The notes below the pieces were generated by a model. The model worked only from the letters and a program-made list of their open reading frames with translations, ran no database searches and was not told the origin of the DNA. Positions 2,571-7,701 of a DNA stretch of 7,749 bases are shown piece by piece (positions within the stretch are counted from its first letter, which is position 1; each line of letters opens with the position of its first letter). Source of the stretch: a bacterium. Its GTDB lineage: Bacteria > Arandabacterota > Arandabacteria > Arandabacterales > Arandabacteraceae. The DNA is taken from contig JAOZOU010000028.1 of assembly GCA_029933125.1 (NCBI GenBank), positions 1 to 7,749 of the forward strand, read 5' to 3'. Both the position numbers and the translations under genes were made by a program.

Positions 2571-3755
2571 CTACTTCTCAGCTATGGCTTGTTCGAGTGC
2601 CAGGACTGAATAGCTGGTTACGAGGTTGCGGTTGCGTTCCCACCAACGAGAGTTGGTATTTATCCAGGAGCCGTCCTCGTCCTGGAGACTCACGAGCTTC
2701 CTGATAAGATCTTCCCGCCAATTATGGGCAGCACCCGAGGTATCGACAAGCACAGATTCACCATAAGCCGCAAGTGCCTTTGCCATTGCATGGTAGTAGT
2801 AGAAGAGTCCTTGCTTGCCGAGCTCAGGATTCTCCTCGACAGTATAGTTGGATCTTATCCAGTTGTAGGCTGCTTTGACCCGGGGGTCATCCTTGGTCAG
2901 ATTCGCGTAGATTAGACTTCTCATTCCAGCATAGGTCATGGAACCGTACGAGGTGGTACCTCCTGCCTTGCTATATCCGGGATAGTAGACGAAGCCTCCG
3001 TCATCACCAGCCCACGGCTGGTCATTAGAAGCCTTTAGGTTCTGACATCTCTGCAGAAAGAGGATCGCTTTGTCCCAGAAGAGCCCTTTGCCACTCTGTC
3101 CTTCCGTTACGAACGAAACCTTCGGGGCGGATGATTCATCGAGCGGTCCGCCTGACATCTCTCCATGAGGTGCATAGTCTTCGGAGACCTTAAGCGCTTC
3201 GAGCGAAAACTGGAGATTGGACAAATCCGGTCGCCCACTTGAACCATAGCCTATGCCTCCATAGAAACAGCTATCGGGATAGACGCCTTCACCTTCGTCA
3301 GTCTGGAGGTCTATTAGAAATTGTCTTGCTCGCTTGATAGTTTCCTCATATTCGGGGTTCTTGGCTTCTACTAATGCAACGAGACAAACCGAGGTATTGT
3401 AGGCGGGTAATTCCTTGAGATAGATGCCACCGTCAGGTTGCACACATGAGAGGATGAACTCTATACCTCTTTTGACCACTGGACAGTTCCATTCCGTCAG
3501 CGTATCCGGTGCTCGCAGGAACCCTGCCACCGCAAGGGCAGTGATGCCTGGGTGGTGATCCCACGAGCCATCATCCATCTGTTGGTTTTCCAGATACTTG
3601 AGACCAGCTCGAATCGAGTGTTGCGCCTCATAGATCAGCGATTGATCTAGCTCCCGCAGTGACATATCAAGACCCAACAATGCGGCATCGAAGCCAAGCA
3701 ATAACCAAGTGGAAATCAAGAGGAGGCTAGTCCGAAGTTGTATCCTGTGGCTCAT
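2571..3755 (-). CDS. Exported prenyltransferase/squalene-oxidase-repeat (alpha/alpha-toroid) protein
   Basis: The 394-residue product has QW-type repeats of the squalene-cyclase/prenyltransferase fold: QMDDGSW at 59-65, VQPDGG near 105-110 and QDEDGSW at 358-364. The conserved-looking block TTSYGSMTYAGMRSLIYANL (267-286) precedes KQGLFYYYHAMAKALAAYGE (314-333) and the RWWERN...LVTSYSVLAL ending. This matches a large family of exported toroid proteins common in planctomycetes and related bacteria, whose function is not established. At 394 residues it is much shorter than a true squalene-hopene cyclase (over 600) and shows no DXDD catalytic motif, so I would not call it a terpene cyclase. Residues about 8-28 are a signal or anchor segment. 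The ATG at 3755 has AAAGGAG nine bases upstream and lies inside the end of the preceding gene (29-base overlap), indicating translational coupling. Confidence 0.85.
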   Translation of the reverse strand: MSHRIQLRTSLLLISTWLLLGFDAALLGLDMSLRELDQSLIYEAQHSIRAGLKYLENQQMDDGSWDHHPGITALAVAGFLRAPDTLTEWNCPVVKRGIEFILSCVQPDGGIYLKELPAYNTSVCLVALVEAKNPEYEETIKRARQFLIDLQTDEGEGVYPDSCFYGGIGYGSSGRPDLSNLQFSLEALKVSEDYAPHGEMSGGPLDESSAPKVSFVTEGQSGKGLFWDKAILFLQRCQNLKASNDQPWAGDDGGFVYYPGYSKAGGTTSYGSMTYAGMRSLIYANLTKDDPRVKAAYNWIRSNYTVEENPELGKQGLFYYYHAMAKALAAYGESVLVDTSGAAHNWREDLIRKLVSLQDEDGSWINTNSRWWERNRNLVTSYSVLALEQAIAEK

Positions 3756-4566
3756 CCTTCCACACTCCTTTGTCCTTAATGTCCAATGAGTCCAGTAGTG
3801 CGTGAAGGGGAACGGGATCTACCTTGTTTCGCTTGAAGATGAGTACGATCTTGTGGCCAATCTCAGGCAAGACGTCCTTGTTAGCTCCATAGACCGTATC
3901 ATCGGCTCCTGTAGGGAGCGGGTTGTCTATTATTGTGAAGGGATCATGGTAAGTTGTGACAATTGACTGTTCGACTGAGGCTATGAATGTTCCCTCAATA
4001 ATCTCCGATCCCGAGAAGACCCAATGGGTGGGCTGCATCGGCTTCTTACTCACATAGTTGAGCACGAGGTTTTCCCCTCGCATCAGTTTCCACTCATTGT
4101 TCTCAGACCACTCAGTCCAGATCCAAACTGAATCTCCCTGTGGTGTCCTTGGATCTCCCTGGTAGGCAAGGCCTCCGCCCGGTTCGAGACCAAGAAGTAA
4201 CAATGCAAGCTGAATGTGTAGCGGCTCAGCATCAACTACGAGCACACTCTCGTGACGTTTCCCCAACTTGCCACAAGCGAGCAGCTCAACAAGACCTTCA
4301 GTCATATTGACCTTAGCAGGTATGTATAGACATCCTTGAACCCTATCTATGAGAACGTTGCCGATTCGGTAAATGCGATCATTGATTCTTTCGACAACCT
4401 CGGAAGGAGGAGACATTGGCGGAGATGCTTCAGGCGACATATCTGAACCCACACAGGCGAGCAGTATGGATACAAAGACCAAAAACGAGATGTATAGGTG
4501 CGATCCACCTAAGCCAGAGGCAGGCGCAGCAGCTTCTCGTGCTTGTTTGTCAGCGCAACATTTCAA
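3727..4566 (-). CDS. YdjY-domain lipoprotein
   Basis: This 279-residue protein is first in the operon. The N-terminus has a hydrophobic segment (YISFLVFVSILLAC, residues 25-38) ending in an LLAC lipobox, so Cys38 is the likely lipidated residue. A proline/serine-rich linker follows (41-55). Residues about 66-245 match the YdjY domain: KRHESVLVVDAEPLHIQLALLLLG (103-126) and YHDPFTIIDNPLPTGADDTVYGANKDVLPEIG (206-237) are its characteristic blocks. The domain has no established biochemical role. The start is uncertain. The frame opens at a TTG (4566-4564), with CGGAG about 11 bases upstream, leaving an unusually long 24-residue polar stretch before the hydrophobic core; no ATG or GTG in this frame offers a better start. 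Its 3' end overlaps the toroid gene. The shared promoter and overlap suggest the two products act together outside the cytoplasm. Confidence 0.8.
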   Translation of the reverse strand: MKCCADKQAREAAAPASGLGGSHLYISFLVFVSILLACVGSDMSPEASPPMSPPSEVVERINDRIYRIGNVLIDRVQGCLYIPAKVNMTEGLVELLACGKLGKRHESVLVVDAEPLHIQLALLLLGLEPGGGLAYQGDPRTPQGDSVWIWTEWSENNEWKLMRGENLVLNYVSKKPMQPTHWVFSGSEIIEGTFIASVEQSIVTTYHDPFTIIDNPLPTGADDTVYGANKDVLPEIGHKIVLIFKRNKVDPVPLHALLDSLDIKDKGVWKDEPQDTTSD

Positions 4567-4722
4567 AAGCTCAGACTCCGTAATAAGAGCTCATGATTCC
4601 AATCGGGACGATTCGCAGGCATTGCGGAAGTGTCTTAATTCCCGCAGCTCGCCCGGATGTCTATCCCGACAGCCGCAAAGCGAAACCCGCATACTTTGGC
4701 TCTCTATCCTGGAAGCCAGGGA

Positions 4723-4752
4723 ATTTTAGCATATATCCTTGGCGTTGGTCAA
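4723..4752 (-). promoter_or_regulatory. Promoter of the YdjY-lipoprotein / toroid operon
   Basis: On the minus strand TTGACC (4752-4747) is followed after 18 bases by TAAAAT (4728-4723), preceded by TGC as an extended -10. Both boxes are close to the sigma-70 consensus. Transcription would start near 4716, giving a leader of about 150 bases before the TTG start at 4566. The likely end of the IS256 element lies only 15 bases upstream of the -35 box. Confidence 0.55.
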
Positions 4753-4882
4753 GTATATTAGCCCTTTGATAGTGCAACTAAAAGTGTGCGGAATTGATTT
4801 TTTCAGAGGTTGCATGGGGTAGCTCCCGGTTCTTTCCATTGCGTCTCAACTGGTCGTGCTCATATACGGTTGCTATTGCGAA

Positions 4883-4909
4883 CCTGTCTGCGTGGATCGC
4901 ACAGGCAGG
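4883..4909 (+). repeat. Palindromic repeat, copy C (27 bases)
   Basis: Left arm CCTGTCTGCG (4883-4892), loop TGGAT, right arm CGCACAGGCAGG (4898-4909). Both arms are identical to those of the copy at 5903-5929, while the loop differs. It lies near the 3' end of the transposase gene and is translated in frame as LPACAIHADR. Length 27 keeps the frame. Confidence 0.75.
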
Positions 4910-5621
4910 AAGAATTCTCGATGCGCTCTTTCTATCAACGAAGGCACCGATTGGATCGACTCTTCTTTTTATCTCACGGAAGAATCTATCAAGAGGGTTA
5001 TTGGTTCTGATCTTGCTCCACATCCGGCGTGGCATTTCCAGATATGTTAGAGTAAGGTCTATGTCTCTGAGGAAGTTCCTTACAGCCCTGGGATGAGCCT
5101 TGTGCCATTTCTGTCTGAAGTGGGCTATTCTCCTTAAGGCTTCAGCCTTTGAGCGTGCCTGCCAGATCATCTTGGCATCAGTTATGATGAGTCTCTTAAG
5201 AGGATGACCTTTGAGAGCCAGGACGAGGTTTCTCATTTTGTGGAACAGACAACTCTGGATGTTAGCCTCAGGCCAGAGCAATGCTACAGCAGCTGAGATG
5301 GCAGAGGCTCCATCAGCCACAACCACCTTAAGGCAGGAGCCTTTGAGACCTCGCTGCCAGAGACTTTGCAAGAAGGCTTGCCACTCATGTGCATCCTCAC
5401 TCCAGGCATGCCAGAAACCAAGGATTGTGACTCTGCCATCTGTTGTTATCCCCATGGCAAACAGGGTTGGGCGCTTCTTGACTCCCCGCTCCTTTATCCT
5501 CAAGAAGACCCCATCGAGATAGAGCACCTCTATGTCATCTCTAATCGGGCTTGTGAGCCACTGCCTAACAGACCTGTTGAGCCAGGTAATTATCCTTGAG
5601 ACACTCATAGAGGAGAGTCCA

Positions 5622-5650
5622 CCTGCCTGCCTGTGCGTTACGCAGACAGG
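5622..5650 (-). repeat. Palindromic repeat, copy B (opposite orientation, at the frameshift)
   Basis: On the plus strand CCTGCCTGTGCG (5626-5637), loop TTA, CGCAGACAGG (5641-5650). These arms are the exact reverse complement of those in the other two copies, with a three-base loop and an extra CCTG unit (5622-5625). Removing 28 bases here would join SILGT directly to GLSSMSVSRI in one frame. The non-multiple-of-three length explains the broken transposase. Confidence 0.75.
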
Positions 5651-5902
5651 TACCAAGGATGGATCTCAGAGCACGTTTCATCCTCCTTGTGGATATACCA
5701 GAGATGAAGCACTCAAGGACGGCTATCTCAATAGCCCTTACCCTGCGCTTGTAGGGGCTCCAGAGCCTTGTGCGGAAGCGGCTGTTGCGTAGCCTGGGTA
5801 CCTTCAGGTTTGATATCCTGCCCAGGGTGCTCACTATGGAGCGTAGTCTGTAGCCTGCCCGCTCGTCCTGTCTGTTGGGGCTTCTGCCATAGCGCCGGCA
5901 GG

Positions 5903-5929
5903 CCTGTCTGCGGGCTACGCACAGGCAGG
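5903..5929 (+). repeat. Palindromic repeat, copy A (27 bases)
   Basis: Left arm CCTGTCTGCG (5903-5912), loop GGCTA, right arm CGCACAGGCAGG (5918-5929); one more G-C flanking pair (5902, 5930) extends it. It sits in the N-terminal part of the transposase and is read in frame on the minus strand as CLCVARRQA, in a different reading phase from copy C. Confidence 0.75.
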
Positions 5930-6169
5930 CAACCAGCAGGTCACGCTCAGCCTCCATGGTGGTCTCAAGCAACTCTTTGAGTTGGATTCTCATCTGCTTG
6001 GTAATTTCTCCCCAGATGGCATCTTCATCCTTGAGTAGTTCGAGTGCCTGTGCTAAATTATGTTTTGAAAAGTTGAGTTGGTGTGGCATGGGGTATACCT
6101 TGTATAGTAGAAGTCGCCGTTGGCGGCTGTTTCTTTTATGGTGGTTAGTGTCAGTTTGAGTTGGTATCG

Positions 6170-6291
6170 GGAGAAGCCTTGGAGGTACCTTAGGGCGCAG
6201 TGACCCTTCTTAGGAGAATGGCTCTCCCCATGCTTTCCCAGGAATCCTGATGAGCTTCTTAGGGCATCTGACCCTTCATTTCGGTGCAAGG
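6170..6291 (+). ncRNA. Candidate IS110 bridge (seeker) RNA region
   Basis: In the IS110 group the non-coding DNA between the left end and the transposase encodes a structured RNA that pairs with donor and target DNA (established knowledge). This stretch is in the right place and can fold: GGAGA-ATGGC-TCTCC (6213-6227), AGGG/CCCT (6192-6207) and AGGG/CCCT (6261-6275). The two AGGG/CCCT hairpins belong to an imperfect 23-base direct repeat (6189-6211 and 6258-6280). The assignment rests on position and folding potential only; I cannot identify guide sequences. Confidence 0.3.
6189..6280 (+). repeat. Imperfect direct repeat upstream of the IS110 transposase
   Basis: Unit 1 (6189-6211) and unit 2 (6258-6280) share CTTAGGGC, then TGACCCTTC and a final TT, with a one-base length difference in the centre. 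Both units can form a small AGGG/CCCT hairpin. They start 69 bases apart. Confidence 0.5.
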
Positions 6292-7701
6292 ATGGAGTTG
6301 GGAGCAGCAATTGGGGAGCTGTCCCGGTGCCAGGGGAAGAAGGGAGGGATCGATGAAGATATATTTTGGATTGACGTAGGTGGCCACAGCCACACTGTGC
6401 ACTTTATGGATGGTTCAAAGAGACAGTTGATGCCGGAGTTGGTGATAAGCGATGATGTAGACGGTTATGATGAGTTGGTAGCCCGACTCCGGGAGTTGAG
6501 ACAGCGATATCCTGGGGCTGAGATACATGGAGGTGCAGAAGCCACAGGTATATACTGGCGCAATCTGTTCTTCTACCTGAAGCGAGCCCTACCGTGGGTG
6601 AAGATGACACTTGTGAACCCTCTTCAAACCAGGCGGTATAGAGGCCTGCAGTTACGTCGAACAAAGACAGACCGGCAGGATAGTCAGCTGGTAGCGATGT
6701 ATCTTGCCACCTTTGAGCCTGCTGAGACGGAGTTGCCCGATGAGCATCTTGCTGACCTGTGTGAGTTAGTCAGGTACAGACGGGTGAAGTTGAAGGAGTA
6801 TAGCCGGTACCGCAACTATCTTCACAAGTATCTTAAGCAGGCGTTTCCGGAGCTTTGCGGCAAGGTCAGGCGGATGAGCGGTTTGAGGATTCTTGCTGTC
6901 TTGAGCCGGTACCCCACTGCTGGGCATGTGAGGAGGGCAAGCGTGGCAGAGATAGCAAGACTTCCCTATGGGAAGCGATGCTGGCGTGTGGGCAGGGCCA
7001 CCGCTGTGCAATTGAAGAAGTTGGCGGAGCGCTCGGCAGCCAGTTATGTGGGACCCGGGGTGGGATTCACCATTCAGTCCTTAGCTGCCAGTCTTTTGAG
7101 GCTGAGGGAGGAGACAATCGCCTTTGAAGAGAAGATAGATGAATTGTACTGCAAGAATCCTGCTACCAAGCTCATTACCATACCTGGCATCGCTGGGCTC
7201 TCGGCGGCAGTGAGAGAGAGTGAAGTGAAAAACATCAGCAGGTTTAAGACCGCCGAAGACCTGGTGGGCTATGCGGGAGCCTATCCTGAGATACGCCAGT
7301 CTGGGGTATCCTCCAACCCCAAGCCACGTATGACTCACAAGGGAAACAGGTACCTCAATCAGACCATATATATGTGTGTCTTGAATGCCATCTCCCCACG
7401 TGCACCCGAGAGCGCGATCAAGCACTATTACTACAGGCTCATCGCCTCGAGTAAGGACCGTATGGTGGCCATAGGATCATGCATGAGGAAACTCTTGCAT
7501 ATTATCCATGCCATCCTGACCACGGGTAAACCTTACAGGGTCGATTATGAGTTCCCAGTAGGGACCTTCCAGGTCAGATTCGTCGATAGGAAGACTGCCA
7601 GGTACCTTACAGAAGATGAGATATCTACCTCGACAACGGTTATTCCTATCAAATACAAGGGGAAAGTCACCGCCCCAAAAGTCTTAAAAGACTCAAGATA
7701 G
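6250..7701 (+). CDS. IS110-family DEDD transposase/recombinase
   Basis: The frame is 483 codons from ATG 6250. The next in-frame ATG (6292, residue 15) is an alternative that would leave the upstream repeat out of the coding region; neither has a good ribosome-binding site. The N-terminal RuvC-like domain shows the DEDD tetrad: Asp42 in FWIDVGG, Glu97 in GAEATGIYW, Asp141 and Asp144 in RRTKTDRQDSQ. A helical middle follows (about 160-300). The C-terminal Transposase_20 domain runs LITIPGIAGLSAA (308-320), DLVGYAGAYPEIRQSGVSS (337-355) and THKGNRYLNQ (362-371). Ser351 of the QSG motif is the expected nucleophilic serine. All catalytic positions are present and the frame is open, so it may be active. 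At about 470-483 residues it is longer than many IS110 transposases, partly through a 50-residue C-terminal tail. It diverges from the IS256 transposase, with about 160 bases between them. Confidence 0.9.
   Translation: MSFLGHLTLHFGARMELGAAIGELSRCQGKKGGIDEDIFWIDVGGHSHTVHFMDGSKRQLMPELVISDDVDGYDELVARLRELRQRYPGAEIHGGAEATGIYWRNLFFYLKRALPWVKMTLVNPLQTRRYRGLQLRRTKTDRQDSQLVAMYLATFEPAETELPDEHLADLCELVRYRRVKLKEYSRYRNYLHKYLKQAFPELCGKVRRMSGLRILAVLSRYPTAGHVRRASVAEIARLPYGKRCWRVGRATAVQLKKLAERSAASYVGPGVGFTIQSLAASLLRLREETIAFEEKIDELYCKNPATKLITIPGIAGLSAAVRESEVKNISRFKTAEDLVGYAGAYPEIRQSGVSSNPKPRMTHKGNRYLNQTIYMCVLNAISPRAPESAIKHYYYRLIASSKDRMVAIGSCMRKLLHIIHAILTTGKPYRVDYEFPVGTFQVRFVDRKTARYLTEDEISTSTTVIPIKYKGKVTAPKVLKDSR

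Follow-up and report, generated by a model that had tools for sequence, protein, structure and literature searches.

A 24- to 33-nt bulged hairpin inserted into IS256 transposase genes and recurring under many phylum labels

A short bulged hairpin, CCTGTCTGCG-loop-CGCACAGGCAGG, here named E, is inserted DNA. Its insertion is precise, with a purine before it and usually a C after it, and leaves no clear target duplication. Three copies lie in one transposase gene of the window, that is, the whole stretch of DNA analysed, which is the entire 7749-base contig C27 of the source assembly (G000; 3.23 Mb, 176 contigs, 96.7% complete). The other genomes referred to most often are G001, a sister species, and G002, which belongs to another genus of the same family. 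We consider it rather probable that E is a tiny non-autonomous element, moved as single-stranded DNA by a putative HUH-like enzyme acting in trans, and that IS256 elements are hitch-hiking vehicles here.

Three copies of E in one transposase gene

The IS256 copy of the window, its transposase ORFs and the three E copies are positioned as follows.

4768..6234, minus strand: IS256 copy, approximate extent (limits of similarity to G000:C76 and G000:C120)
4778..5656, minus strand: IS256-family transposase, C-terminal part (Transposase_mut, PF00872)
5565..6089, minus strand: same transposase gene, N-terminal part (Transposase_mut, PF00872)
4883..4909, plus strand: E copy 1, 27 nt, loop TGGAT; transposase frame kept, reads LPACAIHADRF on the sense strand
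5626..5650, minus strand: E copy 2, 25 nt, loop TAA, inverted
5903..5929, plus strand: E copy 3, 27 nt, loop GGCTA; transposase frame kept, reads ACLCVARRQA on the sense strand

All three copies are inside the two overlapping ORFs that jointly match PF00872. The original prediction of three palindromes with identical arms, differing loops and an inverted middle copy holds: CCTGTCTGCG and CGCACAGGCAGG are the same in each copy, while no two loops agree. The middle palindrome is real but had been drawn too long (5622-5650); its true span is 5626-5650, and the extra bases are neighbouring native CAGG. A search with the 27-nt pattern, allowing up to three mismatches, gives two matches in the window (the remaining copy has only 25 nt) versus none in 200 shuffles. 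A looser scan with up to five mismatches finds no extra copy in the remaining 6.4 kb, as had been claimed.

With the 25-nt copy 2 taken out, the two transposase ORFs become a single 428-aa ORF, where both 27-nt copies align as added residues without counterpart in IS256 homologues. The window transposase is out of frame because copy 2 has 25 and not 27 nt; this copy probably began with 27 nt and broke the gene through a subsequent loss of 2 nt. A search of viral contigs for relatives of the window transposase found none.

The IS256 copy is directly adjoined by an IS110-family transposase (window 6250-7701; DEDD_Tnp_IS110 and Transposase_20; 483 aa), and this pair recurs, shortened, in G000:C76. 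The C76 relatives of the window IS256 and IS110 [L059, G000:C76:108000-116000, at 3953-4971] have lost internal parts and retain E copy 1. The same is true of a shortened relative of the window IS256 in C120 [L060, G000:C120:37000-45000, at 3767-4174].

E is inserted DNA

An IS256 in G000:C162 carries E in frame within an uninterrupted 409-aa ORF, and the IS256 of G001:C257, 97% identical to it, has E in the same place. The homologous IS256 of G002:C151 (79% amino acid identity), which comes from a genome without any E, is exactly 27 nt shorter at that site. The empty site reads GGAGTT-GCCTGTCTGG, and the filled site reads GGAGTT-G[E]CCTGCCTGG. The original prediction had proposed this comparison with empty-site homologues and had allowed that the repeats might be native IS256 coding sequence; the G002 element, lacking the 27 nt, speaks against the latter. 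This empty site covers one of six IS256 events, and for the remaining events the evidence of insertion comes from protein alignment.

Nested insertions, in which one E has entered another, also bear on target duplication. In five of the six cases the outer copy has the canonical length of 27 or 30 nt, and in the remaining case (L239) it is 31 nt long. Outer copies of canonical length imply that the insertion did not duplicate 2 bp or more; the junction is ambiguous by one base, and a 1-bp target duplication is compatible with the data. DDE elements normally leave a target duplication. This mark of a DDE-moved MITE is missing from E, since no nested insertion duplicates 2 bp or more.

Outside IS256, Pfam-confirmed ORFs that read through E encode a lipid A acyltransferase, HsdS, HsdR (two copies), an SNF2 helicase, a DUF772 transposase, a phage capsid fusion and a phage portal protein; in some of these genes E is near a terminus, and the real start may be downstream. 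Only Pfam-confirmed genes were counted because the ORFs were called mechanically and many of the long GC-rich ones are spurious. Most sampled copies are intergenic or outside long ORFs. The idea of a family of mobile palindromic elements that enter genes is supported.

Anatomy of the hairpin

The outer arms of E, CCTGTC and GGCAGG, enclose, when paired, a CA bulge of 2 nt and an inner stem-loop that varies, and 27- and 30-nt copies are predicted to fold into an outer stem, the CA bulge and an inner stem. The inner stems are related to one another (TGCG..CGCA, TGCGTG..CACGCA and TGCCG..CGGCA). The arms are thus near-invariant and the centre variable, although the conservation of the arms is in part due to sample selection because the search demanded exact or near-exact arms. 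The position flanking E on the left (-1) is a purine at 166 of 194 sites and the one on the right (+1) is a C at 143 of 194, with both features present at 121 of 194.

At 198 of 227 sites the total length is 24, 27, 30 or 33 nt. Selection on coding sequence was considered as the source of these three-base steps and rejected: lengths in multiples of three are found for 106 of 125 copies outside long ORFs versus 58 of 64 others. Since the pattern is equal outside long ORFs, it does not result from selection on single intragenic copies. All six frames are open in 86% of E copies versus 30% of shuffles, an excess that is given no weight because the copies are not independent.

Distribution in the source genome and in IS256

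Copy numbers in the source genome come from pattern searches of the assembly. With up to two mismatches there are 14 matches and none with a reversed-pattern control; counting the 25-nt copy of the window, the total is 15, of which 12 are within IS256-type sequence. This assembly-wide search had been suggested as a check on whether any copies exist beyond the window, which they do. Counting the same site in homologous DNA once, we infer nine insertion events in G000, six of which (comprising the 12 copies) are in IS256-type sequence.

Window IS256: 3 sites; E copy 1 (site 1) recurs at this position in C76 and C120
C162 IS256: 1 site
C42/C164 IS256 group: 2 sites
C42:501468-501521: 2 adjacent copies
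C175:19553: 1 site

Same-site copies form one set in C27, C76 and C120 and another in C42 and C164. At the fetched G000 loci, degenerate copies with up to five mismatches were sought, and none was seen.

An IS256 remnant in C171 [L063, G000:C171:99000-107000, at 3664-3690] has one E. In the C42 IS256 group, two E sites, A and B, are 604 nt apart; the C171 copy has the left flank of A and the right flank of B. Judged against L056 (3254-3280 and 3858-3884), this single copy arose by a deletion of ~600 nt between two E copies. E can therefore serve as a point of recombination.

E insertions are inherited inside IS256, with the same site common to copies within a genome and to the sister species, and IS256 is probably the carrier of E in this lineage. 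In this scenario, IS256 elements that had received E would have copied it and carried it into this genus, and the excess in IS256 would reflect hitch-hiking. Three readings were offered at the outset: an origin of the insertion sequence in a repeat-rich genome, targeting of IS DNA by the repeats, and silencing of the element by them. The first, widened to include uptake of E by the IS before its spread here, fits best because IS256 copies in G000 and the sister species have E at the same site. In G060, the genome with the densest E content, several copies have a common repeated flank, so E has been copied there inside a larger repeat. Both this repeat and the restriction of E-bearing IS256 to G000 and G001 among the sampled sites fit hitch-hiking. 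At the G060 loci L074, L153 and L168 the common flanks are GAGCGATTCTATATTCAGA / CCTGCCTTACAAAATCGCTCAA, and these copies apparently lie within a larger inverted-repeat element.

Active targeting of IS256 transposase genes by E, or its use by hosts to silence them, is by comparison very unlikely. Three divergent IS256 groups carry E, and six of nine G000 events fall within ~10 kb of IS256 sequence, which corresponds to a binomial P of ~7e-14 if placement is random and independent, an assumption that ignores arrival inside IS256 and fails if IS256 copies bring E along. However, a tblastn search with a limited IS256 protein panel detects an IS256 spanning E solely in G000 and G001; the other sampled sites have none. 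Because no sampled E elsewhere sits in IS256, we conclude that E does not target it. Moreover, most sites are intergenic, and the intragenic ones are in capsid, portal, HsdR/HsdS and other genes. Silencing has no general support either: the 27-nt copies keep the reading frame, the 409-aa ORF of C162 is uninterrupted, and in the window the frame is shifted by the 25-nt copy alone.

Distribution across lineages

E is present in at least 115 stretches of a genome contig collection and in 31 stretches of viral contigs. Among the matches listed, the bacterial labels include Brocadia, Lentisphaeria, Kiritimatiellae, WOR-3, Latescibacterota, Methylomirabilota, Nitrospirota, Bipolaricaulota, Planctomycetota, Verrucomicrobiota, several deltaproteobacterial groups and Anaerolineae; one Methanosarcinales archaeal MAG and others are also listed, and Rickettsia is not among them. 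The labels of E carriers span more than 10 phyla, with matching arms, and some of these labels may be wrong because most carriers are metagenome-assembled genomes. In 50 such genomes the number of copies ranges from 1 to 85, and the reversed-pattern control gives 0. Among seven closer relatives, searched with a looser pattern, E is present only in the sister species G001. In that species, two head-to-head copies [L227, G001:C317, at 269-322] are within a short ORF that by eye resembles part of an integrase-type transposase.

The predominance of metagenome-assembled carriers, together with the doubtful labels, is what an artefact (adapter or primer sequence, chimeric assembly or metagenome-bin contamination) might produce, and blastn of E against plasmid and phage record collections gave no match, the query being so short that the sensitivity is uncertain. 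Such an origin is nevertheless extremely improbable. The complete-genome record of Candidatus Brocadia pituitae contains E, as do other non-MAG records, and one insertion is common to two species at 97% identity. In addition, the loops are genome-specific, and the copies are internal, many of them in frame, with dozens per genome.

How E might move

The two junctions of E, R^CCTG on the left and CAGG^C on the right, share the form of the R^C target, and junctions shaped like the target are what single-strand cutting and joining would need. In the model that we favour, E would move as a single-stranded hairpin, its left end cut at R^C and its right end at G^C by a putative HUH-like (Y1-type) nuclease acting in trans. 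The excised E would then be rejoined at an R^C target, and rejoining at such a target would make no duplication. A comparable case is IS200/IS605, elements of the Y1 HUH type with subterminal hairpins that are cut and joined as single strands without target duplication (PMC6006769). E differs in that it encodes nothing, and no Y1 element ending in E was found.

Repetitive extragenic palindromes (REPs) with TnpA-REP (RAYT) are imperfect bulged hairpins of 20-50 nt, mainly intergenic and thought to be mobilized in trans (PMC8266576, PMC3733652, PMC2817692). E resembles them in being an imperfect bulged palindrome of 24-33 nt, mostly outside long ORFs and without target duplication, and its copy number (up to 85 in E-rich genomes, 15 in G000) is also in keeping with a REP. 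Moreover, E. coli TnpA-REP requires the bulge and cleaves single-stranded REP at a dinucleotide (PMC8266576), and REPs inside genes are known (PMC3733652). It is, however, doubtful that E belongs with the REPs and has a RAYT as its mover. Within 10 bases outside E, GTAG occurs at 4 of 207 sites on the left and 5 on the right (expected, 3.0 per side) and CGTC at 3 and 5 of 207 (expected, 5.5), so that neither tag is enriched over expectation on either side. E is mostly solitary, and its arms are near-identical across many phyla. The suggested search for a RAYT did not bring out a link to E: among ~40 Y1 genes (part of the Y1 set in E-rich genomes, and that of G000), one has E within 200 nt. Y1 genes are present in 18 of 20 E-rich versus 37 of 55 E-free genomes, which is no clear excess, and the two sets differ in lineage and kind. 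The sole Y1 (RAYT-like) gene found in G000 [L066, G000:C42:54000-62000, at 3742-4065] is flanked by inverted GGGGTCGGAGCTAAAAAT instead of E; GGGGTCGGAGCTAAAAAT also occurs elsewhere in G000, and together with this gene it is a separate repeat system.

Another mover, be it a DDE transposase, a recombinase or replication-based hairpin copying with microhomology, seems to us somewhat unlikely. The empty-site target has GCCTGTCTGG, which is similar to an E end, and short end-like sequence is commoner in the flanks than at random positions; the G060 copies with a longer repeated flank have, moreover, been copied in larger elements too. Yet the R^C preference itself accounts for much of this flank similarity, and the target duplication expected of a DDE transposase is ruled out at 2 bp or more by the nested insertions.

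Relation to other palindromic repeats and implications

The likeness to Rickettsia RPEs and to REPs that had been pointed out is a fair one with respect to size, hairpin shape and in-frame insertion. RPEs (Ogata et al. 2000, 2002), as two later papers summarize them, are palindromes that are in frame in protein genes and encode extra residues; the first-described RPEs are ~150 bp long and restricted to Rickettsia, and RPE-4 and RPE-6 belong to the CGTC-tagged REPs (PMC10969869, PMC3733652). E also enters coding genes in frame, as is evident from the empty-site pair, the Pfam-confirmed genes and the IS256 alignment. In contrast to RPEs, E is 24-33 nt long, has no tag and occurs in viral contigs as well as under many phylum labels. 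Nor does E share the Rickettsia host that, with the RPE consensus, marks RPEs: its listed carriers belong to other phyla. PARCELs are protein-coding palindromic repeats in distant clades, associated with horizontal transfer and mobile elements (PMC2996958), but they are tandem, domain-forming repeats of 25 residues, whereas E is a single short insertion and usually extragenic. REPs, RPEs and PARCELs come nearest to E, which has part of their defining features. A search of the open-access literature by DNA string, encoded peptide (text only) and topic found no description of E, although one may exist.

To our knowledge, the known REP and RPE families have been described within particular lineages, and a hairpin that keeps its arms under so many phylum labels, in an archaeon and in viral contigs would have an unusually wide range for a mobile sequence. 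We tentatively raise a broader reading, on which we lean slightly towards doubt: E may be an undescribed tiny hairpin that crosses phylum and domain borders, with insertion sequences, MITEs and phages as its carriers and a trans-acting enzyme family new to such repeats as its mover; its three-step lengths and six open frames would allow passage through coding sequence. Given its small size and open frames, proteins, including phage structural ones, gain 8-11 codons, and E therefore bears on how proteins acquire short insertions. It is to be expected as puzzling additional residues in many annotated environmental proteins. The question raised is which enzyme cleaves at R^C and recognizes hairpins of the form CCTGTC-N-CA-GGCAGG.

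Sister forms that have TGCCGTGNCGGCA as inner stems, along with 24-nt forms of E, are present in G038 (at least 16 places), G067 and G077. Their sequences suggest a larger family with common outer arms.
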